From Streptomyces sp. NBC_00289 (GTDB lineage Bacteria; Actinomycetota; Actinomycetes; Streptomycetales; Streptomycetaceae), in NCBI RefSeq assembly GCF_041435115.1, contig NZ_CP108046.1, forward strand, positions 9,796,001-9,860,000: 64,000 nucleotides of DNA, read 5' to 3'. The notes beneath the pieces are model-generated. The model saw nothing but the letters and a program-made list of their open reading frames with translations. It was not told where the DNA came from and did no database searches. Shown here piece after piece: positions 13,241 through 61,931 of the stretch (position 1 is its first letter; each line of letters starts with the position of its first letter). The position numbers and the translations under genes were made by a program.

Positions 13241-13662
13241 TCGCCGGGTTGTGGGCTGAGAAGTCGACGTGCCGTGCGGTCAGTCGGGGGCCCGGCGCGG
13301 GAAGGATGTCCGGCCGCCGGGGCGAGGGCTTCCGCGCCGGGCGGGGCCTGTCCGAAAGCCCGGGTACGGGGCGTGCGGGCTTTCGTGGCAAGCGAGGAAG
13401 CAGCTCAGCCGGGATGTCCGTAGGGCAGGGGCGCTCCGGGCTGGGCAACGGGGGTTGGACGCCGTGGGTGCCGAGTCCTTGGAGGGTGCCGGTGGCTCCG
13501 TGCAGCGGTGCGCTCTGCGCCAAGTACACGGTCGTGTTGCCGTCCAGGTGTGGGCACAGGCGGGCCGCGGTGTTCACATGGCGGGCGCAGAGGGGCGGGT
13601 GATTGGTCAGCACCTCCGCCGTGCCGGGAGTGTGGTCGTGCGGCCCGGCGAGGAACACGAGT
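13219..13662. repeat. Diverged direct copy of 34699-35242
   Basis: The left boundary (CTCGTCACTCGACGGCTT) and right boundary (CGGCGAGGAACACGAGT) match the segment at 34699-35242 in the same orientation. This copy lacks about 100 bases after the conserved hairpin. It carries, on the minus strand, a partial copy of the CxxC-containing gene at 34858: LVFLAGPHDHTP, LCARHVNTAARLCPHLDG and LAQSAPLHGATGTL are recognisable. The copy is broken and probably not expressed. Confidence 0.8.
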
Positions 13663-24805: not shown

Positions 24806-26956
24806 TCACCGTTGCAGCGCGGGCTCCTCGTCGTCGGCGAGCGGCTGTTGACCGTCCGGCAGCTCCGCCGCTGGACGGGACAGCCGGCTCGGCCACCAGA
24901 TCCGCCGGCCGATCAGCAGGGTGAGGGCGGGCACCAGGACCGACCGCACCAGCAGGGCGTCGAGCAGCACGCCGAAGGCGACCAGGAACCCGACCTCGAT
25001 CAGCATCACCAGCGGAAGTGTGGCGAGGACCGCGAACGTGGCCGCCAGGACCAGGCCTGCCGAGGTGATGACGCCACCGGTGGCGGAGAGGGCTTTGAGC
25101 ATGCCCTCTCTGGTGCCGAGACGCACGGTCTCCTCCCGGGCCCGGCTGGTCAGGAAGATGTTGTAGTCGACGCCGAGCGCCACCAGGAACAGGAATGCCA
25201 GCAGCGGCACCGAATAGTCGATGCCCTTGAACCCGAGGATCGTGTCGAAGACGAACACGCTGCCGCCGAAGGCTGCGGCGAATGAGACGATCACGGTGGC
25301 CATCAGGACCAGCGGGGCGAGGATCGCGCGCAGCAGCAGCCCGAGGACGATCAGGACGACGGCGAGCACCAGCGGGATCACCAGCTTCTCGTCGCGCTTG
25401 GTGGTCACCTCGGTGTCGAGGTTCTCCGCACTCGGCCCGCCGACGATCGCCTCCGCCCCGCTCACCGCGTGCACGGCGGTGCGCACCCGCTTGATCGTGT
25501 CGTACTCTGCGGCGGTGTCCGGCGCGTCCTTCGGGAACACGGAGATGTTGGCCCAGCCACCGCTGGTCTGCTCCGGGATGGCCAGGGCCACACCGCGAGT
25601 GTCCTTGACGATGTCGAGCACCCGCTCCTGGTGCGCCGGCCGCGTGAAGATCGTCATCGGCTGGCCGCCGAGCTCCGGGAAGTGCTGGCGGAGAACGGTG
25701 AAGCCGGTGACCGACTCCGGCGCGGACAGGAACTGGTCCTGCTCCCGCAGGGCGCCGGTGTTGCCCGCCAGCCCGAGGGCGAGCACGCCGAGGACTCCGA
25801 GCGAGCCGAGTGTCGCCAGCCACCGGCGGCGGCTGATGGCGGTGCCGAGCCGTCCCCACAGCCCCGGCTTCTCCTCCACGGCCGTGCTGAACCGGGGGAT
25901 GGCCGGCCAGAAGATCCGCCTGCCGAGCACCACGAGCACCGCCGGGAACAGCGTCAGCATGGCCACCAGCGCGCACAGGATGCCGGCCGCACCGATCGGG
26001 CCCAGCCCGCTGGTGCTGTTCAGGTCCGCGACGAGCAGGCAGAGCAGGCCGGCGACCACGGTGGCCGCGGACGCGACGATGGCCGGCGCCGCGCCGCGTA
26101 GCGCGTGGACCATCGCGACCCGGACGTTCTCATGGTGGTGCAGTGCCTCCCGATATCGAGCGATGAGCAACAGCGCGTAGTCCGTGCCGACGCCGAATAC
26201 CAGGATCGTCAGCAGCGCCGAGTTCTGGTCGTTGACCACGATGCCGAAGCCCTTGACGAGCAGGTAGACGGTCGCCATCGCGGTCAGTGCGGCCGCGCCC
26301 ACGGCCATCAGCGGGATGATCCACAACACCGGGCTGCGGTAGGTGAGGATGAGCAGGAGCGTGACGACGACGATGGTGGTGAGGAGGACCTGCACGTCGA
26401 TGCCGTCGAAGACGGCCTCCATGTCGCCGTCGATCGCGCCCGGTCCGGTCACGTCGAGTTCCAGGCCGGAGGGGCGGTCCTTCGCGGCGTCACGCAACAG
26501 GCCGACAATGTCCTCCGGTGCGCCGTAGTCCGTGCTCACATCGAGGGTGAACATCATCGCCTTGCGGTCGGTGGAGGGGCTCGTCGGTGAGCCCTCGTCG
26601 TCCTCGCCGGCCGCCGCCTTCCCCTTCGGCGGGTACCGCTTGGCAAGGGTGTTGTAGTGGCGCTCGACCGTCGCGCGGTCGGCGTCGGTCATGTCGCCGG
26701 CGCGGTGGTACACGAAGACGAACGTGTTGTTGTCACCGCCGGGGAGACTGTCGTCCAGCACCGCCACCTTGGTGGACTCGGCACTGGCCGGCAGGGTGTC
26801 CACGGCGCTGTCGGTGGTGACCGAGCTCAACTTTCCGCTCAGCGGCACCATGCCCGCCGCCAGCACCAGCCACAAGCCAATCACCAACCATGGCACCCAC
26901 CGGCCTGCCAACCGACCGGCCGGCGCTTCCCCGGACGGCGCTGCGTTGACTGCCAT
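24806..26956 (-). CDS. MmpL-family RND transporter
   Basis: 716 aa from ATG 26956, chosen because GTAGGAGG lies 6 bases upstream (an upstream ATG at 26983 has none). TM1 is WVPWLVIGLWLVLAAGMVPL. A large extracellular loop follows, with a charged insert (KAAAGEDDEGSPTSP), then a TM bundle with the family signature FGVGTDYALLLIARYREA. The second half repeats this after residue 370, with VALGVDYNIFLTSRAREE. The two Asp-Tyr pairs form the proton relay typical of MmpL pumps. It convergently faces the two-component system. Its leader lies in a 280-bp sequence repeated upstream of the foreign amidohydrolase. Likely cargo is a lipid or hydrophobic compound. Confidence 0.92.
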   Translation of the reverse strand: MAVNAAPSGEAPAGRLAGRWVPWLVIGLWLVLAAGMVPLSGKLSSVTTDSAVDTLPASAESTKVAVLDDSLPGGDNNTFVFVYHRAGDMTDADRATVERHYNTLAKRYPPKGKAAAGEDDEGSPTSPSTDRKAMMFTLDVSTDYGAPEDIVGLLRDAAKDRPSGLELDVTGPGAIDGDMEAVFDGIDVQVLLTTIVVVTLLLILTYRSPVLWIIPLMAVGAAALTAMATVYLLVKGFGIVVNDQNSALLTILVFGVGTDYALLLIARYREALHHHENVRVAMVHALRGAAPAIVASAATVVAGLLCLLVADLNSTSGLGPIGAAGILCALVAMLTLFPAVLVVLGRRIFWPAIPRFSTAVEEKPGLWGRLGTAISRRRWLATLGSLGVLGVLALGLAGNTGALREQDQFLSAPESVTGFTVLRQHFPELGGQPMTIFTRPAHQERVLDIVKDTRGVALAIPEQTSGGWANISVFPKDAPDTAAEYDTIKRVRTAVHAVSGAEAIVGGPSAENLDTEVTTKRDEKLVIPLVLAVVLIVLGLLLRAILAPLVLMATVIVSFAAAFGGSVFVFDTILGFKGIDYSVPLLAFLFLVALGVDYNIFLTSRAREETVRLGTREGMLKALSATGGVITSAGLVLAATFAVLATLPLVMLIEVGFLVAFGVLLDALLVRSVLVPALTLLIGRRIWWPSRLSRPAAELPDGQQPLADDEEPALQR

Positions 26957-32254: not shown

Positions 32255-33370
32255 CTACCAGTGGATGGTTTGGTTGTGGGGGGTGATGTGGAGGGTGGAT
32301 TCGCGGAGTGTGGGGGTGCCGGCGGTGTGCCAGCGGGCGAGGTGGTCCTCGGCGGTGTCCCAGAGCATGCGGGTGCCGTGTTGGCGGATGATGCAGTGGC
32401 CGTTTTCTTCGTGGAGGGCGGCGAAGGATCCGGTGGTGGTGTCGATCAGAACGTCTTCGGTGTGCCCGTTGTGGTGCAGGGTGAGGCGTTGGGTGTGGGG
32501 GAGGGCGAGCTGGATGATGAAGCGGGCCGTCCAGTCGTCGAGAATCTTGGGCGGGAGGGGTGTTTGGTGTTCCTGGCCGGTGGTGAGGTCGGGCAGGAGA
32601 CCGGCTGGGGGTGGCTGGTGGGGGCGGGCGAGCATGAAGGCCACCTGTCCGCCCAGGAGTTTTCCGGTTGCGGTGCCGTCCTCGTGGACGGTGAGGCAGG
32701 CCAGTTCGGAGGAGCCGAGCCAGCCGCTGATGGTGGCCAGGATCAGTCCGCCGGGCCGGGTCTGTTCCAACCAGGTTGCCGGGATGGTGCGGACGGCGCA
32801 GGTGGCGATGATCCTGTCGTAGGGTGCGCCCTCGGGGTGGCCGAGGAGGCCGTCACCGGTGACGAGGGCGGGATGCATCCCCAACCCGGCAAGGGCGGTG
32901 TGTGCCCGCGCGGCGACATCGTGGTCGTACTCGACCGAGGTGAGGTGCTGTGCGCCCAGACGCGTGCACAGCAGCGCGGTCGAGTAGCCGGTGCCGGTTC
33001 CGATCTCCAGCACCCTATCGTCCGGTTGAACGTGGAGATCCTCCAGCATGCGCAGCACGAGGGAGGGCAGTGTGCTGGAGGATGTGGGCTCGCGCATGAT
33101 GTGCCCGCGGACATCGGCGGGCACGATGGTGCCGGCGATCTGCGTGACCAGGGACTCGTCGGTGTAGCAGCCCTCCAGCCAGCCCTCCTCGCCTTCCAGG
33201 ACGGGAGCCCACGCCGACGGTGCGCCGGGCACGCGGCGGAAGTATCCGCCGCGCAGGAACTCGTGCCGGCGCACCGTGCGTGCGGCATGACGCCATGCGG
33301 CCGTGCGCGGGTAACCGTCGGCCGTCAGGCGGTCGATGAGCTGCTGGTGCAGTCGTTCTTCGTCGCTCAC
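32255..33370 (-). CDS. tgmC: Graspetide-associated O-methyltransferase (isoaspartyl MT-like)
   Basis: 371 aa from GTG 33370, overlapping tgmB by 4 bases (GTGA). Residues about 1-70 form an N-terminal segment with LRGGYFRRVPGAPSAWAPV. The SAM-binding Rossmann domain starts near 120 with DDRVLEIGTGTGYSTALL, then TSVEYDHDVA and YDRIIATCAV, the order found in protein-L-isoaspartate methyltransferases. A C-terminal extension of about 160 residues is typical of the methyltransferases paired with ATP-grasp peptide ligases. In related imiditide systems this enzyme methylates an Asp of the cyclised peptide, leading to an aspartimide. Here that is inferred from family and gene order. Confidence 0.88.
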   Translation of the reverse strand: MSDEERLHQQLIDRLTADGYPRTAAWRHAARTVRRHEFLRGGYFRRVPGAPSAWAPVLEGEEGWLEGCYTDESLVTQIAGTIVPADVRGHIMREPTSSSTLPSLVLRMLEDLHVQPDDRVLEIGTGTGYSTALLCTRLGAQHLTSVEYDHDVAARAHTALAGLGMHPALVTGDGLLGHPEGAPYDRIIATCAVRTIPATWLEQTRPGGLILATISGWLGSSELACLTVHEDGTATGKLLGGQVAFMLARPHQPPPAGLLPDLTTGQEHQTPLPPKILDDWTARFIIQLALPHTQRLTLHHNGHTEDVLIDTTTGSFAALHEENGHCIIRQHGTRMLWDTAEDHLARWHTAGTPTLRESTLHITPHNQTIHW

Positions 33371-34314
33371 GTTCGTCTCTCCAAAAGGTCGGCCAGGGCT
33401 GCGCACATCGGCAGACCGGTTTCGGGTTCCAGCCAGTACCACTGGCCGCAGGGGTTGCACTCCAAGAACCACCATCTGCCGTCCTGGCTGATGCAGAAGT
33501 CGAAAGCCCCAAAGACGAGCCCGAAGTGATTCACATAGTTGTGGAGCGCTGACTCGATAGCGGCCGGTGGCGTTATGGGGGTGTAGCGCAGCCGTGTGTA
33601 GTCGCTGCGCCAGTCCAGGAGGTCGGAGTCGATCCGCACGCAGTAGATGCGGGAGCCGATGACGGTGACCCGTACGTCGGCCGTCTTGGCCACGCGGACC
33701 TGGAACAGGTGCGCGGTGCCCGCGACACCGTCGTCAATGTCTTCAGCGGCCACCTCGGCGATTTCGACCACGGACGCGACGCCGTCGAGGCGGTAGACCG
33801 GGTTGTGCAGCGGTTTGTAGATGACGTGCTCGTACCGTTCGACGAATGCCCTGGCGGCCTCAGGGCGGGAGGTGATGAGAGTGGGCGGGACCAGGAAGCC
33901 GGCCTGGACTGCGGCGGCCAGACCGGACGGCTTGAATTCGGCGTCTCCGATGCGGTGCGGGTGGTTGACGTAGAGGTAGCCGGGCAGCGACGCCAGGACC
34001 CCGCCCAGGCCATACCGTGCCTGTGTGACGGCGAACCGCGCGTCCTGATCGGCGAGGTGGGGGAAGGCGAACCCGGTCGGCCTGCGGTAGTACACCGCAC
34101 GGACCTGGTCCAGCTCTGCCGTGCGGGACGCGGTACGCACATGGCCTCGTAGCCCGTCCTGGGTGATCTCGGCCTGAACGGACAGGGAGGCGGGGAAGTC
34201 GCCTGAGTCGAACCGTAGGACGGGGACGTCCCGCTCGTTGAGCTCGCCGATCACCACGTCGGCGGTGGGGTCGTGGAGGCTGGTGACGACCAGCACCGGG
34301 CGGGAGTCTGTCAC
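33367..34314 (-). CDS. tgmB: ATP-grasp ribosomal peptide maturase (graspetide ligase)
   Basis: 315 aa from GTG 34314; start and stop each overlap a neighbour by 4 bases, fixing the start. An N-terminal pre-ATP-grasp domain (VLVVTSLHDPTADVVIGELN) is followed by YRRPTGFAFPHLADQDARFA. The ATP-grasp core has the nucleotide Lys in YEHVIYKPLHNP and metal ligands in GAFDFCISQDGRWWFLECNP then CGQWYW. This matches the actinobacterial SAV_5884-type maturases, which join Thr/Ser or Lys side chains to Asp/Glu side chains of a precursor by ATP-driven ester or amide formation. The substrate is the adjacent tgmA product. Confidence 0.92.
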   Translation of the reverse strand: MTDSRPVLVVTSLHDPTADVVIGELNERDVPVLRFDSGDFPASLSVQAEITQDGLRGHVRTASRTAELDQVRAVYYRRPTGFAFPHLADQDARFAVTQARYGLGGVLASLPGYLYVNHPHRIGDAEFKPSGLAAAVQAGFLVPPTLITSRPEAARAFVERYEHVIYKPLHNPVYRLDGVASVVEIAEVAAEDIDDGVAGTAHLFQVRVAKTADVRVTVIGSRIYCVRIDSDLLDWRSDYTRLRYTPITPPAAIESALHNYVNHFGLVFGAFDFCISQDGRWWFLECNPCGQWYWLEPETGLPMCAALADLLERRT

Positions 34315-34601
34315 TGGTCGCTGTCGCTGCCCGTGTCGCTGTCCTGGGTGCTGCCGTTGCCGTCCGGGCTGGTACCGGTGGCTGGGCTGGTGCCCGTGCT
34401 CGTACCGTGGCCGGGCATGTCCATCACCTGGCCGTCGACGTCGAGGAACACGGCGGTCTGCGTGAGCGGATCCAGACGCGTGGCGGCGTACGGGGCTGCC
34501 GTGGGATACGGCGCCATCCGGCCGATCCCCCAGGGCAGCGGGGTGAGCGCTCCCTGCGGGACGGCTGTGTCTGTGGGCAGACGGTCGGAATGCACGAACA
34601 T
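34311..34601 (-). CDS. tgmA: Graspetide (ATP-grasp-modified RiPP) precursor peptide
   Basis: 96 aa from ATG 34601 with GAAGGA 7 bases upstream. The leader has the family signature TPLPWGIGRMAPYPTAAPY and TRLDPLTQTAVFLDVDGQ, used for maturase recognition. The core from about residue 64 is Gly/Thr/Ser-rich then acidic: hydroxyl donors in HGTSTGTSPATGTSPDGNG and acceptor Asp residues at 80, 87, 89, 93 and 95 near the C-terminus. No Cys or Lys lies in the core, so side-chain esters are expected rather than amides. The stop overlaps tgmB by 4 bases, coupling substrate and enzyme synthesis. No protease or exporter gene is linked. Confidence 0.9.
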   Translation of the reverse strand: MFVHSDRLPTDTAVPQGALTPLPWGIGRMAPYPTAAPYAATRLDPLTQTAVFLDVDGQVMDMPGHGTSTGTSPATGTSPDGNGSTQDSDTGSDSDQ

Positions 34602-34623
34602 GGCATCGTCCTTCGAATTGTCG

Positions 34624-34650
34624 GCAGTCCCGCCGGCCTGGCGGGACTGC
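34624..34650 (-). promoter_or_regulatory. Perfect hairpin in the tgmA leader
   Basis: An 11-bp perfect stem (GCAGTCCCGCC / GGCGGGACTGC) with a 5-nt loop lies 22 bases before the tgmA ATG, just upstream of its ribosome site. It could terminate or attenuate transcription entering from the upstream genes, or protect the tgm transcript. Confidence 0.6.
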
Positions 34651-34698
34651 GGATCTGTCGGACCCGGAGCCGAAGATCCGCGAACGAGCAAGAACTCC

Positions 34699-35242
34699 CC
34701 TCGTCACTCGACGGCTTATTGCTGGGTTGCGGGTCGAGAAGTCGACGTGCGGTGCGGTGAGTTGGGTGCCCGGCGCGGGAAGGATGGCCGGCCGTCGGGG
34801 GAGGCGGCCGGGGCGGGGTCCTCCCGCGCCGGGCGGGGGGCCTGCCCGAAAGCCCGGCTACGGGGGCGTGCGGGCTTTCGGGCAGGGGCTCATGAGGTGT
34901 GTGCGGAGCTGGTGGAGGAGTTCGTCGAGGGCCAGGATGCGGAAGGCGCTGAGGCGGCGGATCTGCTGCGAGGCGAGGAAGCAGGTCATGCCGGGATGCC
35001 CGTAGGGCGGGGGCGCTTCGGGCTGCGCCACGGGCTGGACACCGTGGGCGCCGAGTCCGTAGAGGGTGCCGGTGGCTCCGTACAGTGGCGCGCTCTGCGC
35101 CAAAAACATGGTCGGGCTACCGTCCAGGTGCGGGCAAAGCCGGGCGGCGGTGCGCACATGGCGGGCGCAGACGGGCGGCTGGTTGGTCAGCACCTGCGCC
35201 GCGTTGGGAGTGTGGTCGTGGGGCCCGGCGAGGAACACGAGT
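34699..35242. repeat. Original copy of the segment duplicated at 13219-13662
   Basis: Covers the tgm-proximal intergenic region and the 3' half of the 231-aa gene. The 13-kb copy is in the same orientation and shorter by about 100 bases. The duplicated edge lies only 98 bases upstream of tgmA, so this junction was once a recombination endpoint. Confidence 0.8.
34842..34885 (-). terminator. Terminator overlapping the end of the 231-aa gene
   Basis: A perfect 15-bp stem (CTGCCCGAAAGCCCG and complement) has a 14-nt loop that contains the stop codon of the gene at 34858. Conserved in the 13-kb copy. It would largely separate the upstream operon from tgmA. Confidence 0.75.
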
Positions 35243-35553
35243 CCGAGAGGGGTGCGGGCGGGGGCGGTGCAGATCTGGCAGCGCAGGGCCTGCATGGTCA
35301 TCATCTGCCGGTAGGGGTGCACGAGTTTCCACTGCGGCCGGCCGGCTGGCTGGCCCTGCGCATCGAGAGGGTTGAAGGAGCAGCGTGCCCGTAGGACGCC
35401 GCGTAGGTCGCGGTCGCGGGGGTCTTCGTCGGCGTAGTGCAGGCGGAGGCGGCCGCCGGGGTGGGGGAGGAGGATGAGGTTGTCGGGGGCCGCGTCCTCG
35501 CCTTCGTGCTGGGTGATGAACGGGACGAGGCCGTAAACAGCCGGGGTGGGCAC
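34858..35553 (-). CDS. Conserved hypothetical with CxxC zinc-like motif
   Basis: 231 aa from GTG 35553, with AGGAAG about 10 bases upstream; the longer open frame is antisense to nothing convincing and lacks a ribosome site. Mid-protein residues RCQICTAPARTPLGLVF and PVCARHVRTAARLCPHLDG give Cys/Cys ... Cys/His ... Cys/His spacing that could bind zinc. FLAGPHDHTPNAAQVLTNQP lies between. No HNH catalytic pattern is certain. It is the third gene of the minus-strand unit above tgmA and exists as a broken copy at 13.2-13.7 kb. Function unknown; DNA or RNA binding is possible. Confidence 0.7.
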   Translation of the reverse strand: MPTPAVYGLVPFITQHEGEDAAPDNLILLPHPGGRLRLHYADEDPRDRDLRGVLRARCSFNPLDAQGQPAGRPQWKLVHPYRQMMTMQALRCQICTAPARTPLGLVFLAGPHDHTPNAAQVLTNQPPVCARHVRTAARLCPHLDGSPTMFLAQSAPLYGATGTLYGLGAHGVQPVAQPEAPPPYGHPGMTCFLASQQIRRLSAFRILALDELLHQLRTHLMSPCPKARTPP

Positions 35554-35747
35554 GGAACGCTGCTTCCTGGGTTGTCGGGGATGGACAGAAGGGGGAGCGG
35601 GGGGACGAGCACCCCGCTTTCTGCAGGCAGTTGAGAGCAGGCGAGGTGCTCGGCGACCTCGTTGACCGTCCAGGCCGTCCGGCGTACGTGCCCGACTGCC
35701 TGCCCCCGTCCGGTATCTCCTGTGAGCGCACCTTGCGGCTCGCCTCA

Positions 35748-36023
35748 TCAGGGCTGTCCGCTCGCCGTGCTGGGCGGCTTGGGCGCGGCCGCGCCGGTCT
35801 CGGCGAGCCGGATGGGGATGGCCGCGCTGCCGGGAGGCGAGTGTGCCGAGGCCGTCCGGGGTGGTGCTGCCTCGTCTGGGACCTGGCAGGCGTCCTCGAG
35901 GAGAGCGTCTGCATTCAGCGGCTTCCTGCGCCGGAATGTAGCCGAGGCGCCTCGTCGCCCAAGGGCGGCGTCCAGGGTTCGGAACCGGCCGGGCGGGCCG
36001 GGGGCGGCGGTTGGAGAGGTCAT
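35748..36023 (-). CDS. Small hypothetical protein
   Basis: 91 aa from ATG 36023, overlapping the stop of the ATPase-domain gene by 4 bases (ATGA), which fixes the start. The sequence (FRTLDAALGRRGASATFRRR; LNADALLEDACQVPDE) is low-complexity and proline/alanine-rich, probably disordered. Translational coupling suggests it works with the ATPase protein, perhaps as a small partner. A gap of about 195 bases follows before the next gene. Confidence 0.6.
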   Translation of the reverse strand: MTSPTAAPGPPGRFRTLDAALGRRGASATFRRRKPLNADALLEDACQVPDEAAPPRTASAHSPPGSAAIPIRLAETGAAAPKPPSTASGQP

Positions 36024-36598
36024 GTGCCCTCCGTGGGCGGGATGGTGAGGCGGCACCAGGCGGCGGCACCGTCGTTGTTGATCCCGAAGGTGCCGCCGTT
36101 CTCCTTGGCCAGTGCGGCGACCAGCGCAAGGCCCCGCCCGGACTCGGCGTCCTCGTCGGCCGGCGCGTGCGGGATGCAGGCCGGCATCCCGTCGTGGACG
36201 GTGATGTGCAGGATGCCGTTTCCGACGGCCAGCTTCAGGTGGATCTCCGTCGTCCCGCTGTGCACGAGCGCGTTGGTGACCAGTTCGGAGACGATCAGCA
36301 TCACGTCGGCGGTCATTGCTTCCAGGCCGCAGTGCCTCAGCCGTGCGGCAGCGATCCGGCGCATGGCCCCGACCCGCAGCGCGTCCTCTGCACTGGGCGG
36401 AGTCTGACCTCGGCTGGCGACGATCTTGAACCGCTCGTTCATCACCGTGCCGTTCTGGCGCGGGCGCAAGGGGAGGGGCGGTGTCGACGCAGTGGTCACG
36501 ACGTCTGTCGCATGGATGCGCGAGCCCGGCGGGGCAGTCGGTGCAGCACCTGCCCGGGTGGGCCACTGTCGCGGGGACGGTACGTCGGTCGCGGTCAC
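36020..36598 (-). CDS. Anti-sigma-type ATP-binding protein (HATPase_c_2, RsbW-like)
   Basis: 192 aa from GTG 36598, chosen because AGGAGG lies 8 bases upstream; a later ATG at 36442 has none. The first 50 residues are a low-complexity leader. The GHKL fold has its N box in VMLIVSELVTNALVHSG and G1 in DEDAESGRGLALVAALA, as in Streptomyces regulatory kinases of the RsbW/AbaA-orfD group. Such proteins bind sigma factors or anti-anti-sigma proteins. Divergent Scr1-type HTH and DUF397 genes complete the classic developmental regulatory set. Confidence 0.85.
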   Translation of the reverse strand: MTATDVPSPRQWPTRAGAAPTAPPGSRIHATDVVTTASTPPLPLRPRQNGTVMNERFKIVASRGQTPPSAEDALRVGAMRRIAAARLRHCGLEAMTADVMLIVSELVTNALVHSGTTEIHLKLAVGNGILHITVHDGMPACIPHAPADEDAESGRGLALVAALAKENGGTFGINNDGAAAWCRLTIPPTEGT

Positions 36599-36620
36599 GG
36601 TGCGTCCTCCTGCCTGTGGT

Positions 36621-36652
36621 GCCCGGCCCTGACGGGGGAGACAGGGCCGGGC
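36621..36652 (-). promoter_or_regulatory. Perfect hairpin just before the ATPase gene ribosome site
   Basis: An 11-bp stem (GCCCGGCCCTG / CAGGGCCGGGC) with a 10-nt loop lies about 10 bases upstream of the AGGAGG site on the minus strand. The position suits attenuation or translational control. Confidence 0.5.
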
Positions 36653-36753
36653 ACGTCTCGACGTCACCGGGATGAGGGCCGGCCTCGTGGGGGAGCTGCG
36701 GTTGCCCCGGTGACTGACGACGACCGTAGAGTGGCAGCCGCTCAACTCCCAAG

Positions 36754-36839
36754 GAGCTTGCGCGAGTTTGCAGCAAGCAAGTTGACGGGCACTTATGGCC
36801 GGTGGACCATCGAGGTGTCACGCAAACTTGCGCAAGGTC
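36754..36839. promoter_or_regulatory. Inverted operator-like repeat pair in divergent promoter region
   Basis: Site 1 (36754-36772, GAGCTTGCGCGAGTTTGCA) and site 2 (36821-36839, CGCAAACTTGCGCAAGGTC) are inverted copies matching at 16 of 19 positions. Site 2 contains the perfect palindrome CTTGCGCAAG. They lie 48 bases apart between divergent operons, a natural place for the Scr1-type HTH at 37769 to bind. Confidence 0.6.
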
Positions 36840-36857
36840 GATGACAGGAGACCGGCC

Positions 36858-37259
36858 ATGAAGTTACGGTTCCTTGGCACCAACTCCACGGGCGGCGACT
36901 GCCCGACGCTGTATGCGACCGACCGGGACAGCTACATCGTCCAGGGATGGCAGCTGTTCGCGAACGAACTGTTGACGCAACTCGACGTACCCGACGGGGA
37001 GACCGCGGTGGAGGTGCCGACCGAGCTGTTCGAGCACCTGCGGGAGGACGGCCTGCCGGCCTGGGAGGTGGACCGCGTCCAGTCCCCGATCATGATCATC
37101 ACGCCGCAGGGCACCTGCGTCGTCCAGGGCGAGGCAGTGACCGACCCCGAAGCCCTTTCCCAGATGTCGATCCCGCACTATGAGACCTGCGTCGAGGTAC
37201 CGAAGGAGGTCCTCACCGCAGTGCTGGAGGAATCATATGGAGCTGCTCTCGGGCGCTGA
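36858..37259 (+). CDS. Small conserved hypothetical protein
   Basis: 133 aa from ATG 36858 with GGAG 8 bases upstream. It starts MKLRFLGTNSTGGDCPTLYA and shows two similar halves: LDVPDGETAVEVPTELFEHL near 43-62 and SIPHYETCVEVPKEVLTAVL near 105-124, suggesting an internal duplication. No signal or membrane span. It is the first gene of the rightward operon and overlaps the DUF6879 gene by 23 bases. I recall this type beside Scr1/DUF397 pairs in Streptomyces; function unknown. Confidence 0.72.
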   Translation: MKLRFLGTNSTGGDCPTLYATDRDSYIVQGWQLFANELLTQLDVPDGETAVEVPTELFEHLREDGLPAWEVDRVQSPIMIITPQGTCVVQGEAVTDPEALSQMSIPHYETCVEVPKEVLTAVLEESYGAALGR

Positions 37260-37761
37260 GCGCAACCAGCTCTTCGAGCGCTTCCAGCACGACGCGTTCC
37301 ACCTGGAACTGCGCGACGACTACTCCGTCCCCGAGGAGAACGGCCCGTTCCAGAACTGGCTGACAGGCGCAACCACCGACACCGCCTTCCTCGCTCCGTG
37401 GACCCGGCTCGTGTACCAGGCCACCTCACGCGGCATGACCGTCCGCCGCGTGAGGGTCGTCACCGAGCCGGCAACCCCCTACCTCCAGTGGGAGCACACC
37501 GTCACGCCGCTGAACCAGGAGGCCGGTGAGGACATCCGCTGGCTGCCCCGCCGCCTCCTGCCCGACGGCCTGAGCTTCCCTTTCGCCGGCAGGGACTGGT
37601 GGCTGTTCGACGACCGCCTCCTGGCAGTGGGCCACTTCGACCCGGACGGCCGAGTCCTCGGATCTCAGATCATGGAAGCCCCTGACATCGTCACCGCATG
37701 CGTCCGCCTGCGCGACCAGCTCTGGCATCTCGCCATCCCCCACGCCGAGTACACACTCTGA
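37237..37761 (+). CDS. DUF6879-family protein
   Basis: 174 aa from ATG 37237; CTGGAGGA upstream fixes the start inside the end of the previous gene. The family pattern is clear: FERFQHDAFHLELRDDYSVP, VRRVRVVTEPATPYLQWEH, EDIRWLPRR and GRDWWLFDDRLLAVGHFDPD. DUF6879 proteins are regularly encoded directly before an Scr1-type HTH regulator in actinomycetes, as here. They may act as modulators or toxin-like partners; this is not established. Confidence 0.85.
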   Translation: MELLSGAERNQLFERFQHDAFHLELRDDYSVPEENGPFQNWLTGATTDTAFLAPWTRLVYQATSRGMTVRRVRVVTEPATPYLQWEHTVTPLNQEAGEDIRWLPRRLLPDGLSFPFAGRDWWLFDDRLLAVGHFDPDGRVLGSQIMEAPDIVTACVRLRDQLWHLAIPHAEYTL

Positions 37762-37768
37762 ACCATCC

Positions 37769-38623
37769 GTGACCACCCAGACAGATGAGGCACTGCAGGC
37801 GCTCGGCGCCCGGCTGCGCAGCTTCCGCAAGGACGCTGGTTTCCCAAGCGGCCGGGCCTTCGCCCACGCCACCGCATGGCACGAATCGAAGATCTCCCGC
37901 ATCGAGCACGGCAAACAACGCCCGAGCGAGGACGACCTGCGCACCTGGTGCCAGATCACCGGCCAGGCAGAGCAGATCGGCGACCTGATCGCCATCGTCC
38001 GCCACGTAGACGAACTCTGGCTCGAATGGCGCCGCCAACTCCAGGCCGGCGCCGAAAGCAGACAGCACAAAGCCATCCCCGTCTACGCGAAAACCAAAGT
38101 CTTCCGCATCTGGCACCCCACCGTCATCTGGGGAACCCTCCAGACAACCGAGTACGCCGCCAAAGTCTTCGAACAGGTTGTCAACTACTACGAGATCCCC
38201 GACGACTCCGAAGCAGCCGTCGGCAAACGGCTGGAACGTCAGCAGTACCTCTACCAGGGCGAGCGGATCTTCAACGTCCTGCTCGGCGAACAAGCCCTCT
38301 ACACCAACTTCGGCGGCACAGACGTGATGAAGGGCCAGCTCGACCGCCTCCTGGCAGTGATGCGTCTGCCCAGACTCAGCCTCGGCATCGTCCCCCGCTC
38401 CGCACCAGCAGCAATCTGGCCAGGCAACTCCTTCTCGATGTTCGACGACAAACTCGTCCTCGTCGAAACATATTCCGCGGAGCTGTCCGTCTCCCAGCCC
38501 CGCGAAATCGAGCTGTATGCCAAGGCGTTCGCCCTGCTGCAACGGTCAGCTGTCTACGGCACAGCCGTCCGGGACCTCATCTTCACTGCAATCCAGCACT
38601 TCGACCGAATGCCGACAGACTAG
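37769..38623 (+). CDS. Scr1-family HTH regulator (WhiJ-like, DUF5753)
   Basis: 284 aa from GTG 37769, 7 bases after the DUF6879 stop. An N-terminal XRE helix-turn-helix (LGARLRSFRKDAGF; FAHATAWHESKISRIEHGKQ) occupies residues 8-65. The C-terminal DUF5753 domain shows LERQQYLYQGERIFNVLLGE, then LSLGIVPRSAPAAIWPGNSF and LYAKAFALLQRSAVYG. In Streptomyces these DNA-binding proteins work with a small DUF397 partner, encoded 13 bases downstream here, in control of development. Likely operator: the inverted repeats at 36754-36839. Confidence 0.92.
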   Translation: MTTQTDEALQALGARLRSFRKDAGFPSGRAFAHATAWHESKISRIEHGKQRPSEDDLRTWCQITGQAEQIGDLIAIVRHVDELWLEWRRQLQAGAESRQHKAIPVYAKTKVFRIWHPTVIWGTLQTTEYAAKVFEQVVNYYEIPDDSEAAVGKRLERQQYLYQGERIFNVLLGEQALYTNFGGTDVMKGQLDRLLAVMRLPRLSLGIVPRSAPAAIWPGNSFSMFDDKLVLVETYSAELSVSQPREIELYAKAFALLQRSAVYGTAVRDLIFTAIQHFDRMPTD

Positions 38624-38636
38624 GAGAACCACTGCC

Positions 38637-38816
38637 TTGCCCGAGCAGCTCAACTGGCGCACCAGCACCTACACCTCACAAGACTCCTGTGTGGAGGTCG
38701 CCGACAGCAACCCGCACACCGTCATGGTGCGCGACACCAAAGACCGCAACCGTGCCATCGTCTCCTTCACACCTGCTGCCTGGCTTGCCTTCGTGCAGCA
38801 TGCCAAGAGCCGATAG
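38637..38816 (+). CDS. DUF397 protein (BldB/WhiJ-partner type)
   Basis: 59 aa from TTG 38637, supported by TAGGAGAACC upstream; the longer open frame is inside the HTH gene. The family pattern is evident: NWRTSTYTSQDSCVEVAD, MVRDTKDRNRA and FTPAAWLAFVQHAK. DUF397 proteins pair with Scr1-type regulators, in some reports as the toxin-like half or as a specificity factor. It closes the rightward operon. Confidence 0.9.
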   Translation: MPEQLNWRTSTYTSQDSCVEVADSNPHTVMVRDTKDRNRAIVSFTPAAWLAFVQHAKSR

Positions 38817-60891: not shown

Positions 60892-61542
60892 TCAGGCCGC
60901 CTTCCCTGCGGCCGAGACCCTGGAGGCCAGGCTCATTGGGGCGCACGAGGGATGACCCCAGTTGGTCACCCGCCCCGCTGGGGCCGGCGTTTGCCCGGCG
61001 TGCTCGGCGCCCGTGAGGTTCGACTGGAGGTCCTCGCGCTCGAAGCGGCCGCGGGCGTGGCGGCGGCCGAACTCCTCAAGCTCGGCATTGGTCCAGCGGC
61101 GCGAGGCTGCGAACACGTCGATCAGATCACGGGGTGCTCCGCGGTCGGCCAGAGCGCGGACCTTGGTCCCGATCACGTCCTCCTCCGCGAGGACGGGCCC
61201 GTACGGGCTCTGAGCGACCGGCCGCCAGAAGATCTCCTTGAGGATGTCGACTTCGCAGTCTTGCCCGGTGACCGGATCAGTCACGGTGAAGCGAGCAGAC
61301 AGTGGGGCGGTCTCCAGCGCGTGCACATGCCAACCGCGGGCTTCCAGGCCCGCGCGGAGCGTGGCCGCGATGTCGGCCATGGGCGCCGGGTTCTCGGTGG
61401 CGACGTCCAGGTCCTGGCTGGGGCGGTTCACGAGGTGGTGCGCCCGCACGGCGTACCCGCCGGTCAGAACCAGGGGGTACGCGGAGCCGAGGGCGATCAC
61501 GTCCGCCAGGAGCCGCCTGTGCAGCTCCGGCATGTCCGTCAC
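60892..61542 (-). CDS. AbiEii-type nucleotidyltransferase (toxin-like)
   Basis: 216 aa from GTG 61542, overlapping the upstream gene by 4 bases (GTGA). The nucleotidyltransferase core is YPLVLTGGYAVRAHHLVNRP followed by SQDLDVATEN, giving the GG and DxD motifs, and a third acidic position lies in DCEVDILKEI. LAEEDVIGTKVRALADRGAP RDLIDVF is the typical AbiEii helix with Lys and Asp. These enzymes are the toxin side of AbiE/MenT-like abortive-infection or toxin-antitoxin systems, some acting on tRNA. The upstream 130-aa protein is the natural partner. Confidence 0.82.
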   Translation of the reverse strand: MTDMPELHRRLLADVIALGSAYPLVLTGGYAVRAHHLVNRPSQDLDVATENPAPMADIAATLRAGLEARGWHVHALETAPLSARFTVTDPVTGQDCEVDILKEIFWRPVAQSPYGPVLAEEDVIGTKVRALADRGAPRDLIDVFAASRRWTNAELEEFGRRHARGRFEREDLQSNLTGAEHAGQTPAPAGRVTNWGHPSCAPMSLASRVSAAGKAA

Positions 61543-61931
61543 GCGACTGCCTGGGTGCGGGAGGCGAGCTGGGGGAAGGCGTCTTCCCAGACGGTGCGCA
61601 CGGTGCGGCCGACGAGGGTGCGCAGTACCGGCCACAGCTGAAGGAGCAGGTCCCGGTTGAGATACCGGGGCAGGTCATCACGTAGGCCCTCGTGCAGGAC
61701 GGTGCGGTACAGGCCCATGCGCTGACGAGGCTTGCTCATGTCGTACGAGGTCATCCCCGACCAGGCCAGGTGCAGCGGCAGCTCTACGACTCCCTGAGTC
61801 GGGCCGTGCAACTCGTCCAGCGACTCCGGCAGACGCAGCCGGAACTTCTCCCGATAGAGCGCGAGGTCCTCGGCGACCGCGCCCGAGAGATCGCTCGCTG
61901 TGGGTGCGGGGTGCTGGGGGCTCGAGGGCAT
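61539..61931 (-). CDS. Partner protein of the AbiEii-type gene
   Basis: 130 aa from ATG 61931. A helical, soluble protein: SGAVAEDLALYREKFRLRLP, MSKPRQRMGLYRTVLHEGLR and LQLWPVLRTLVGRTVRTVWE. It has no clear HTH, unlike classical AbiEi antitoxins. The 4-base overlap with the nucleotidyltransferase gene implies equal synthesis, and an antitoxin role is inferred from position only. Confidence 0.65.
   Translation of the reverse strand: MPSSPQHPAPTASDLSGAVAEDLALYREKFRLRLPESLDELHGPTQGVVELPLHLAWSGMTSYDMSKPRQRMGLYRTVLHEGLRDDLPRYLNRDLLLQLWPVLRTLVGRTVRTVWEDAFPQLASRTQAVA

Follow-up and report, generated by a model that had tools for sequence, protein, structure and literature searches.

A graspetide cassette beside two recurrent gene modules and a divergent intergenic region in Streptomyces sp. 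NBC_00289

We analysed a compact 6.5-kb locus (positions 32255-38816) in a 64-kb stretch of DNA from Streptomyces sp. NBC_00289; this whole stretch is called the window. The window covers 9.80-9.86 Mb of a 10.63-Mb contig in a genome of 11.0 Mb, and the locus lies in the chromosome arm (9.83 of 10.63 Mb). Three sets of genes are found there, namely the graspetide genes tgmA, tgmB and tgmC, a set upstream of them on the same strand (Unit B), and a divergent operon that includes a regulator gene (Unit A). Both units recur beside different cassettes in other strains. The close matches that carry a name are Streptomyces.

The three graspetide genes are on the minus strand. tgmA (34311-34601) encodes a graspetide precursor of 96 amino acids (aa; TIGR04186, 75.7 bits, cut-off 25; PF14408, 63.5 bits), tgmB (33367-34314) encodes a 315-aa ATP-grasp ribosomal peptide maturase (TIGR04187, 430 bits, cut-off 350), and tgmC (32255-33370) encodes the 371-aa PIMT-like methyltransferase of the ATP-grasp peptide maturase system (TIGR04188, 428 bits, cut-off 380; PF01135). 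Four-base overlaps (GTGA) join tgmA to tgmB and tgmB to tgmC. The core of the precursor is HGTSTGTSPATGTSPDGNGSTQDSDTGSDSDQ, and its start was placed by us at HGTS. Judging from these sequences, the product is probably of the graspimiditide type (group 13 graspetide). Across the genus, 279 of 392 genomes have a TIGR04187 match above the cut-off. Upstream of tgmA, no shared 8-mer rose above the background (10 vs 15). The sole PADLOC match among eight proteins, that of tgmC to mad2, was put down to the common methyltransferase fold.

Unit A is on the plus strand. Its first gene (36858-37259) encodes a 133-aa protein with two tandem repeats of about 50 residues. This protein matched no known family, showed no kinship with DUF397 by profile, resembled no known fold when modelled (pLDDT 73; best Foldseek E 0.05, TM 0.2), and had no match in a phage collection. 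The following genes encode a DUF6879 protein (37225-37761; PF21806, 199.9 bits), an XRE regulator of the WhiJ/Scr1 type with HTH_31 and DUF5753 domains (37769-38623; PF13560, 39.8 bits; PF19054, 103.6 bits), and a BldB-type DUF397 protein (38595-38816; PF04149, 59 bits). As in WhiJ/Scr1-type pairs, the regulator has an N-terminal XRE helix-turn-helix (HTH) followed by DUF5753, and the DUF397 gene is directly downstream. With 77.8 bits against the NF058600 cut-off of 350, the regulator is a relative of the Sco1979 family and not an equivalog.

Unit B is on the minus strand between tgmA and Unit A. The anti-sigma-type ATPase gene (36020-36598; HATPase_c_2, PF13581, 45-46 bits) encodes 192 aa from the GTG at 36598 or 142 aa from 36448, and the former, preceded by AGGAGG, is probably the start. 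As in AbaA-type genes, this HATPase_c_2 gene adjoins an XRE-DUF397 pair; it is divergent from the 133-aa gene and about 0.3 kb away from it. A hairpin in its leader (36619-36654, minus strand; z -2.9) has a similar counterpart at the same place in locus L170. Next comes a DUF6415 remnant with two in-frame stops (35640-36023). Its first part, a 91-aa open reading frame (35748-36023), aligns to the N-terminal part of DUF6415 proteins at the same position in relatives, and the homology resumes past the stops (tblastn 7.4e-11 to L152; hidden Markov model 2e-5 for the frame behind the stops). Among the 150 of 232 candidates scored in the same genome, no DUF6415 match was above the cut-off and two were just below. 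The last gene (34858-35553) encodes a 231-aa CxxC protein with conserved C92/C95, C129, H132, C140, and H142, which matched no Pfam or NCBIfam family in a scan that started at residue 22. A perfect 15-bp inverted repeat lies across its stop codon (34842-34885, minus strand; -34.2 kcal/mol; z -6.5 against a simple two-base-block shuffle; no T run) and looks terminator- or attenuator-like, and a similar repeat lies behind the CxxC gene of L152. Since the repeat spans the CxxC stop, read-through from CxxC to tgmA is not assured.

An earlier note on this DNA, made from the sequence alone, had already read most of this content. It had named the tgmA-tgmB-tgmC series with 4-base overlaps and its SAV_5884-type ATP-grasp family, the ATPase and CxxC genes upstream on the same strand, and the divergent 133-aa, DUF6879, Scr1-type HTH, and DUF397 genes, all of which were found by family profiles or, for the CxxC and 133-aa genes, as proteins that match no family at all. 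Its view that the 6.5 kb hold no exporter or protease also agrees with our scan, in which no gene of the locus matched such a family; an MMPL transporter gene (24806-26884) is among the scanned neighbours outside. However, its "91-aa gene" is not a gene of its own but a part of the DUF6415 remnant.

The region between Units A and B was aligned across 21 loci (median pairwise identity 58%; capitals mark conservation of at least 90%). The conserved region before the Unit A operon includes TAG and CCAAG blocks, TTGCGcgaGTTTGC, TTGACg, gACcaT, and an inverted site copy. The TAG and CCAAG blocks (36726-36753, minus strand, given in plus-strand letters), with columns at least 90% conserved, are kept in the 21 loci despite their different cargo and are probably the promoter of the ATPase side. 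Meanwhile, TTGACG and GACCAT with 17 bases between them (36782-36810, plus strand), also conserved in the 21 loci, are probably the promoter of the 133-aa operon; a sigma-70 consensus scan gave no promoter at this place. The operator-like copies are exact: copy 1, TTGCGCGAGTTTGC, is at 36758-36771 on the plus strand, and copy 2, TTGCGCAAGTTTGC, is inverted at 36822-36835 on the minus strand. Thus, two inverted copies of TTGCGCRAGTTTGC lie 64 bp apart (36758 and 36822) in the shared bidirectional promoter region. These are the only two exact copies in the 11.0-Mb genome, and two more places have one mismatch.

The sites were also conserved among relatives. We searched the 133-aa protein in 392 genomes and obtained 31 close loci. 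In the first 20 loci, a same-strand site within one mismatch was found in 18, located 98-110 bp before the 133-aa start; the exceptions are L146, with the inverted copy only, and L144, with neither. All 11 further close loci, which had been held out, have site 1 at -100 (10 within one mismatch and one with three). Each of them also has a second, inverted copy at -36, always in this place, which departs from the site by 0-4 mismatches. Among 2000 random 200-bp control stretches, searched on one strand, no match had fewer than 3 mismatches, and 110 stretches gave one with 3 or 4. The weaker second sites therefore rest on their fixed position, because 3-4 mismatches are near the background. The site was absent from 120 loci of the CxxC/Unit B, tgm, and control sets, and it was not found in three distant forms of Unit A (L181, L182, and L037; best 3-6 mismatches).

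Thirty of the 31 close loci were read (G011 was left out). In the 29 loci other than the window, DUF6879 was present in 29/29, the DUF5753 regulator in 28/29, and a detectable DUF397 in 21/29; the locus without the regulator is truncated by its contig end. The 133-aa/DUF6879/XRE-DUF5753/DUF397 operon is a constant module in these 30 loci. In contrast to this constancy, the nearest cargo opposite Unit A differs from strain to strain: radical SAM with CYTH in 5 loci (one behind ATPase-CxxC), a "163-aa" family in 6, a DUF397-like protein with JmjC in 4, FxLD lanthipeptide in 3, graspetide in 2, radical SAM with a CxC peptide in 2, a 337-aa/transporter/GS-like set in 1, PIMT with a 44-aa peptide in 1, an ATPase without a recognised cassette in 3, and other or none in 3. 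These labels are our own assignments. Most were given by resemblance to a single representative, and no family scan underlies the names CYTH, transporter, and GS. Unit A faces at least eight cassette types across strains. The three distant forms were not counted in this census. One of them, in L037 (8357-13442), has a single-repeat 63-aa protein, DUF6879, and XRE-DUF5753 collinear into tgmABC, and a distant form is also found on a Nocardia plasmid. In addition, L183 and L184 (76% identity) hold Unit A with other or unseen cargo, and a DUF6415 gene stands opposite it in L183.

Unit B also stands before different cassettes. In 20 CxxC loci (one, G186/L171, was chosen because tgmB is nearby, and another, G324/L164, had been seen near tgmB before selection), the ATPase gene is upstream on the same strand in 17, and a DUF6415 gene is so placed in 12. 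Behind CxxC we found graspetides in L160 and L164, as also in L074 and the window; radical SAM with a CxC peptide and a 272-aa family in L157, L159, L165, and L169; transporter/GS-like sets in L153-L155; a radical SAM of another kind in L161; and others. Twenty plasmid records had CxxC matches, and nine were opened. The annotation of these nine Streptomyces loci includes an ATP-binding protein in seven cases and DUF6415 in six, and the cargo is an FxLD lanthipeptide in 3 (two near-identical), radical SAM with PIMT in 1, and AAA with an aldo/keto reductase in 1. Like Unit A, the ATPase/DUF6415/CxxC set recurs as a module, and at least five of the cassette types of Unit A stand behind it (graspetide, FxLD, radical SAM with CxC peptide, other radical SAM, and transporter/GS-like). 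NCBI names the middle protein "DUF6415 family natural product biosynthesis protein". Upstream of the ATPase gene, no shared 8-mer exceeded the background in 17 CxxC loci (8 vs 9), and one was barely above it in 17 tgm-ATPase loci (12 vs 11).

Some further observations concern Unit B and the window. The ATPase-DUF6415-CxxC front end is carried by both linear and circular plasmids (L186-L194); 6 of the 20 plasmid records were typed mobilizable and 2 conjugative, and DUF6302 and DUF5999 genes are present in some. In the same genome, about 47 kb beyond the ATPase gene, L185 (1258-1841) holds damaged ATPase, DUF6415, and CxxC fragments. They are about 90-91% identical to the window in two longer pieces, with DUF6415 split across different frames, and they adjoin a transposase-like frame. 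Another CxxC fragment is in the window at 13410-13661 (75% identity over residues 105-187). Furthermore, an AbiEii-type nucleotidyltransferase gene (PF08843, 54 bits) and a 130-aa neighbour at 60892-61931 are possibly a type IV toxin-antitoxin pair.

Other observations concern the cassettes themselves. In L140 (4566-6569), where a 73-aa candidate precursor precedes them opposite Unit A, tgmB and tgmC are read as a single frame of 667 aa, either a fusion or a sequencing error. Short peptides encoded directly behind the radical SAM gene carry Cys/Asp-rich tails (GCSCAAGDDNPN, GCSCSAGDDQPY, GCGDDNPYN, GCNDDNPYK, and KCSCNAGDDNPY). Such CxC-peptide loci are L138 (7718-9009), L157 (4362-5689), L159, L165, and L169, and L143 has a like-sized gene. 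The CxC peptides of 55 and 70 aa in the two loci scanned (L138 and L157) had no NCBIfam match, and these peptides are possibly an undescribed type of ribosomally synthesized and post-translationally modified peptide (RiPP) common to Units A and B. In L144 (7402-9141), L146, L178, and L179, a DUF397-like protein of 77-79 aa and a JmjC/cupin enzyme are opposite Unit A, and the DUF397 protein may be a substrate or partner of the hydroxylase there. Meanwhile, the N-terminus of the radical SAM protein of L133 (8586-9803) resembles the start of the 123-aa gene of L134 (10592-10963), which could mark a recombination joint inside the 123-aa gene. A relationship of the 123-aa gene opposite Unit A to DUF6415 was not supported (hhalign probability 2.5).

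The 32-residue core of the window is 94% identical to the core of L049, which has no DUF5753, XRE, or ATPase match nearby. It is also 94% identical to that of L074, where the ATPase is present, and 88% to that of L037, which has a DUF5753 regulator (an HGTS core is present in 51 of the 54 precursors, for which the identity ranges from 36 to 94%). The regulator of the window was compared with those of 26 loci whose cargo differs, L037 included, and the median identity was 71%. Furthermore, in G009 the tgm half and the regulator half are 1.5 Mb apart, and the DNA similarity to the window ends at 34602 (tgmA start) and 36722 (divergent promoter), although an edge at a gene start could arise from coding conservation alone. 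Regulator and product look decoupled, because near-identical cores occur with different regulators and related regulators occur with different cargo. This pattern is expected from block exchange and not from a peptide-specific receptor, and the peptide is probably an output of the switch rather than its specific ligand. The earlier note had called the graspetide half "wired" to the regulatory half, which is too strong given the distance in G009. It had also proposed that the peptide is controlled by, or signals to, the switch. Control is the better supported part, because the promoter region common to both directions contains operator-like sites that are conserved, while signalling is disfavoured because Unit A faces different cassettes and near-identical cores have different regulators.

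To estimate the enrichment of regulators at tgm loci, 20 kb around each of 60 tgmB loci, hand-picked among the best-scoring matches with long contigs preferred, was compared with stretches 200 kb away on contigs of the sampled loci. The 60 loci take in the second tgmB of the same genome (L052), which has no tgmA or tgmC match nearby, and they were reduced to 50 by clustering tgmB at 90%. Of 40 controls (five contigs used twice, one control taken from the contig of the window), 39 remained after L113 was excluded for containing a tgm locus. Seven comparisons were made and the P values are uncorrected. DUF5753 was found within 5 kb of tgmB in 11/60 loci against 0/39 controls (clustered 10/50, Fisher P = 0.002), DUF397 in 10/60 against 0/39 (clustered 9/50, P = 0.004), and an ATPase upstream within 3 kb on the same strand in 17/60 against 2/39, the control figure being the mean over both orientations (clustered 14/50, P = 0.0055). 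An ATPase anywhere within 5 kb was not significant (23/60 vs 8/39; P = 0.1 on 19/50). Three members of the locus were rejected as general tgm partners: DUF6879 (1 of 60 loci and 1 of 39 controls), the 133-aa gene (1 and 0), and the CxxC gene (2 and 0). A first XRE profile (23/60 vs 1/39) drifted to XRE proteins generally, and the DUF5753-only count was kept. Thus, the enrichment whose absence would have refuted the association in the earlier note was found for DUF5753, DUF397, and the same-strand upstream ATPase, but not for DUF6879, the 133-aa gene, the CxxC gene, or an ATPase in any position.

The genome of the window has 19 DUF5753 matches, and each of its two tgmB loci is no more than about 4.6 kb (centre to centre) from one of them. 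Unbiased gene clustering upstream of tgm gave other divergent genes, for example those for a weakly TPR-like protein and an adjoining GNAT enzyme, which occurred in 12 and 14 of 61 loci and in no control. The XRE and TPR names of such divergent regulators are again our own; that of L160 matches no Pfam family and that of L164 weakly matches TPR_12. The cassette families of Units A and B appeared in 1/40 controls, itself a tgm locus.

Taken together, we consider it fairly probable that the locus is composed of three separable units, that XRE-DUF5753 on the two TTGCGCRAGTTTGC sites governs both sides, and that the cargo is swapped, with the peptide as one interchangeable output. Unit A is the regulator operon reading right, Unit B reads left from the promoter region shared with it, and the tgmABC cargo behind Unit B would make the graspimiditide. 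By analogy with WhiJ9, the XRE-DUF5753 protein probably binds both inverted sites flanking the Unit A promoter, and it would set its own operon and the left side together because the upstream site lies between the divergent promoters. DUF397, and perhaps DUF6879 and the 133-aa protein, may tune the regulator, as proposed for BldB/WhiJ paralogues, and the ATPase might target a sigma factor responsible for transcribing the cargo. The gene content, the separability of the units, the conserved sites with their exact copies unique in the genome, and the varied cargo were observed, and from these we infer the binding protein, the sign of regulation, the response of the cargo, the action of the peptide, and any role in development. 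The units are probably exchanged as blocks, with the same Unit A before different cassettes and near-identical graspetides behind other regulators; Unit A and its bidirectional promoter region next to varied cassettes suggest a plug-in control unit. A broader reading is plausible, although we hold it with less confidence. It takes Streptomyces to use combinatorial control, in which recombination at recurring boundaries joins interchangeable small cassettes (graspetides, FxLD lanthipeptides, radical-SAM peptides, PIMT-only peptides, transporter/GS-like sets, and others) to a few constant front ends (Unit A; ATPase-DUF6415-CxxC; the TPR-like protein and GNAT enzyme), perhaps like phase-variable or immunity loci, and one signal would have different outputs in each strain.

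Several results weigh against control by Unit A with swapped cargo. Most tgm loci lack Unit A, and its distant form is found in 1/60 (L037). The window holds no other site within 2 mismatches, so there is none at tgmA, and the hairpin at the CxxC end together with the 256-bp gap before tgmA makes it possible that tgmABC has its own promoter. Unit B may be decaying here, because its DUF6415 gene is broken. The published WhiJ9 site (CGXXCTCAAC; PMC10294661) differs in sequence from TTGCGCRAGTTTGC. In addition, the cassettes are not all unrelated: a PIMT-like enzyme is common to the graspetide, FxLD, and PIMT-only types, and a radical SAM enzyme to two others. In favour of exchange, the cargo label changed 19 times on a tree of the 133-aa and DUF6879 proteins (28 loci, 14 labels; L148 and L149 left out), against a mean of 21.6 and a minimum of 17 for shuffled labels; cargo thus follows the regulator tree only weakly. 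This result has to be read with the reservation that close relatives often share cargo (L132/133/137, L134/136, and L138/143) and that fine-grained labels inflate the count of changes.

The same layout could have arisen if tgmABC and the regulator unit simply drifted together in the chromosome arm without common control. The arm position, the transposase genes of the window (one confirmed, PF13358, 27477-28088; others by eye), the broken DUF6415, the hairpin before tgmA, the separation in G009, and the rarity of Unit A beside tgm would all fit such drift. However, tgm loci have DUF5753 and DUF397 nearby more often than controls do, each of the two tgmB loci in this genome is near one of only 19 DUF5753 matches, ATPase-DUF6415-CxxC stands before a graspetide again in L074, L160, and L164, and Unit A recurs beside tgmB/tgmC in L140 and collinear with tgmABC, in its distant form, in L037. 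We therefore regard chance as unlikely.

Still less credible is an autoinducing switch in which the DUF5753 regulator has the modified peptide as its ligand. Such a circuit would suit a locus with no recognised exporter gene, a C-terminal DUF5753 domain of unknown input, and a divergent layout that might allow autoinduction, but the decoupling of cores and regulators described above (26 loci; L049, L074, and L037) speaks against it. We give just as little weight to the view that XRE-DUF397 is a mobile toxin-antitoxin-like module which stabilises neighbouring cassettes and does not regulate them. XRE/DUF397 pairs have been proposed as type II toxin-antitoxin systems in the portions of text available (PMC2701414, PMC7159879, PMC4239341), and Unit B on Streptomyces plasmids and the distant Unit A on a Nocardia plasmid fit mobility. 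However, the Scr1/Scr2 pairs of Streptomyces coelicolor and other pairs were reported as regulators (PMC10364602 among the sources, in their available parts), and the conserved site layout resembles a transcriptional switch, though toxin-antitoxin operons are also autoregulated.

Control of exchangeable cassettes by Unit A, the reading we prefer, builds on links that are already published in outline. As far as the available parts of these reports go, graspetides of groups 11 and 13 may co-occur with DUF397 and DUF5753 (PMC13097080), HATPase (pfam13581) and HTH-DUF5753 are mostly linked to ATP-grasp in an actinobacterial branch (PMC8939145), and WhiJ9, whose proposed partners are BldB paralogues, activates iosA and binds repeats lying between that gene and whiJ9 (PMC10294661). 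The elements that go beyond these links are the constant bidirectional front end with exchanged cassettes and the site pair. Our literature searches, which covered few subscription papers, gave no description of such an architecture among the papers listed and no paper with DUF6879, DUF5999, or DUF6302, and the one DUF6415 paper they returned was on spiders. The conserved site pair and the regulator offer a handle on which cassettes respond, and the front ends are a search hook for short peptide cassettes that searches by core enzyme could miss. On comparative grounds alone, the decoupling speaks against treating such peptides as ligands of the regulators beside them. If the combinatorial reading is true, one signal drives different peptide outputs in different strains. 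A 2026 review, in its available part, calls the linking of aspartimidylated RiPPs to biological function the bigger challenge (PMC13001092).

Compared with the group 13 graspetides (fuscimiditide, amycolimiditide, albusimiditide, and SsfA), the window has the same precursor, ATP-grasp, and PIMT-like genes in one operon and the same T/D-rich core with a DG site, and by analogy its product would have Thr-Asp ester cross-links and an aspartimide. The neighbours described for that group, in the source parts available, are DUF397, DUF5753, and HATPase, and not DUF6879, the 133-aa protein, DUF6415, or CxxC. Meanwhile, the whiJ-bldB-abaA paralogues and Scr1/Scr2 share with the window the adjoining XRE-DUF5753, DUF397, and HATPase genes, and iosA-whiJ9-bldB9, as the accessible text describes it, also has its operator in the divergent intergenic region, where that of the window is predicted. 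Unlike these whiJ/Scr1 loci, the window has DUF6879 and the 133-aa gene upstream in the operon, another site sequence, and small biosynthetic cassettes opposite. Finally, the FxLD lanthipeptide clusters differ in cargo and in their divergent gene, but they have the ATP-binding protein, DUF6415, and CxxC before the cassette, as seen on three Streptomyces plasmids, two of them near-identical.

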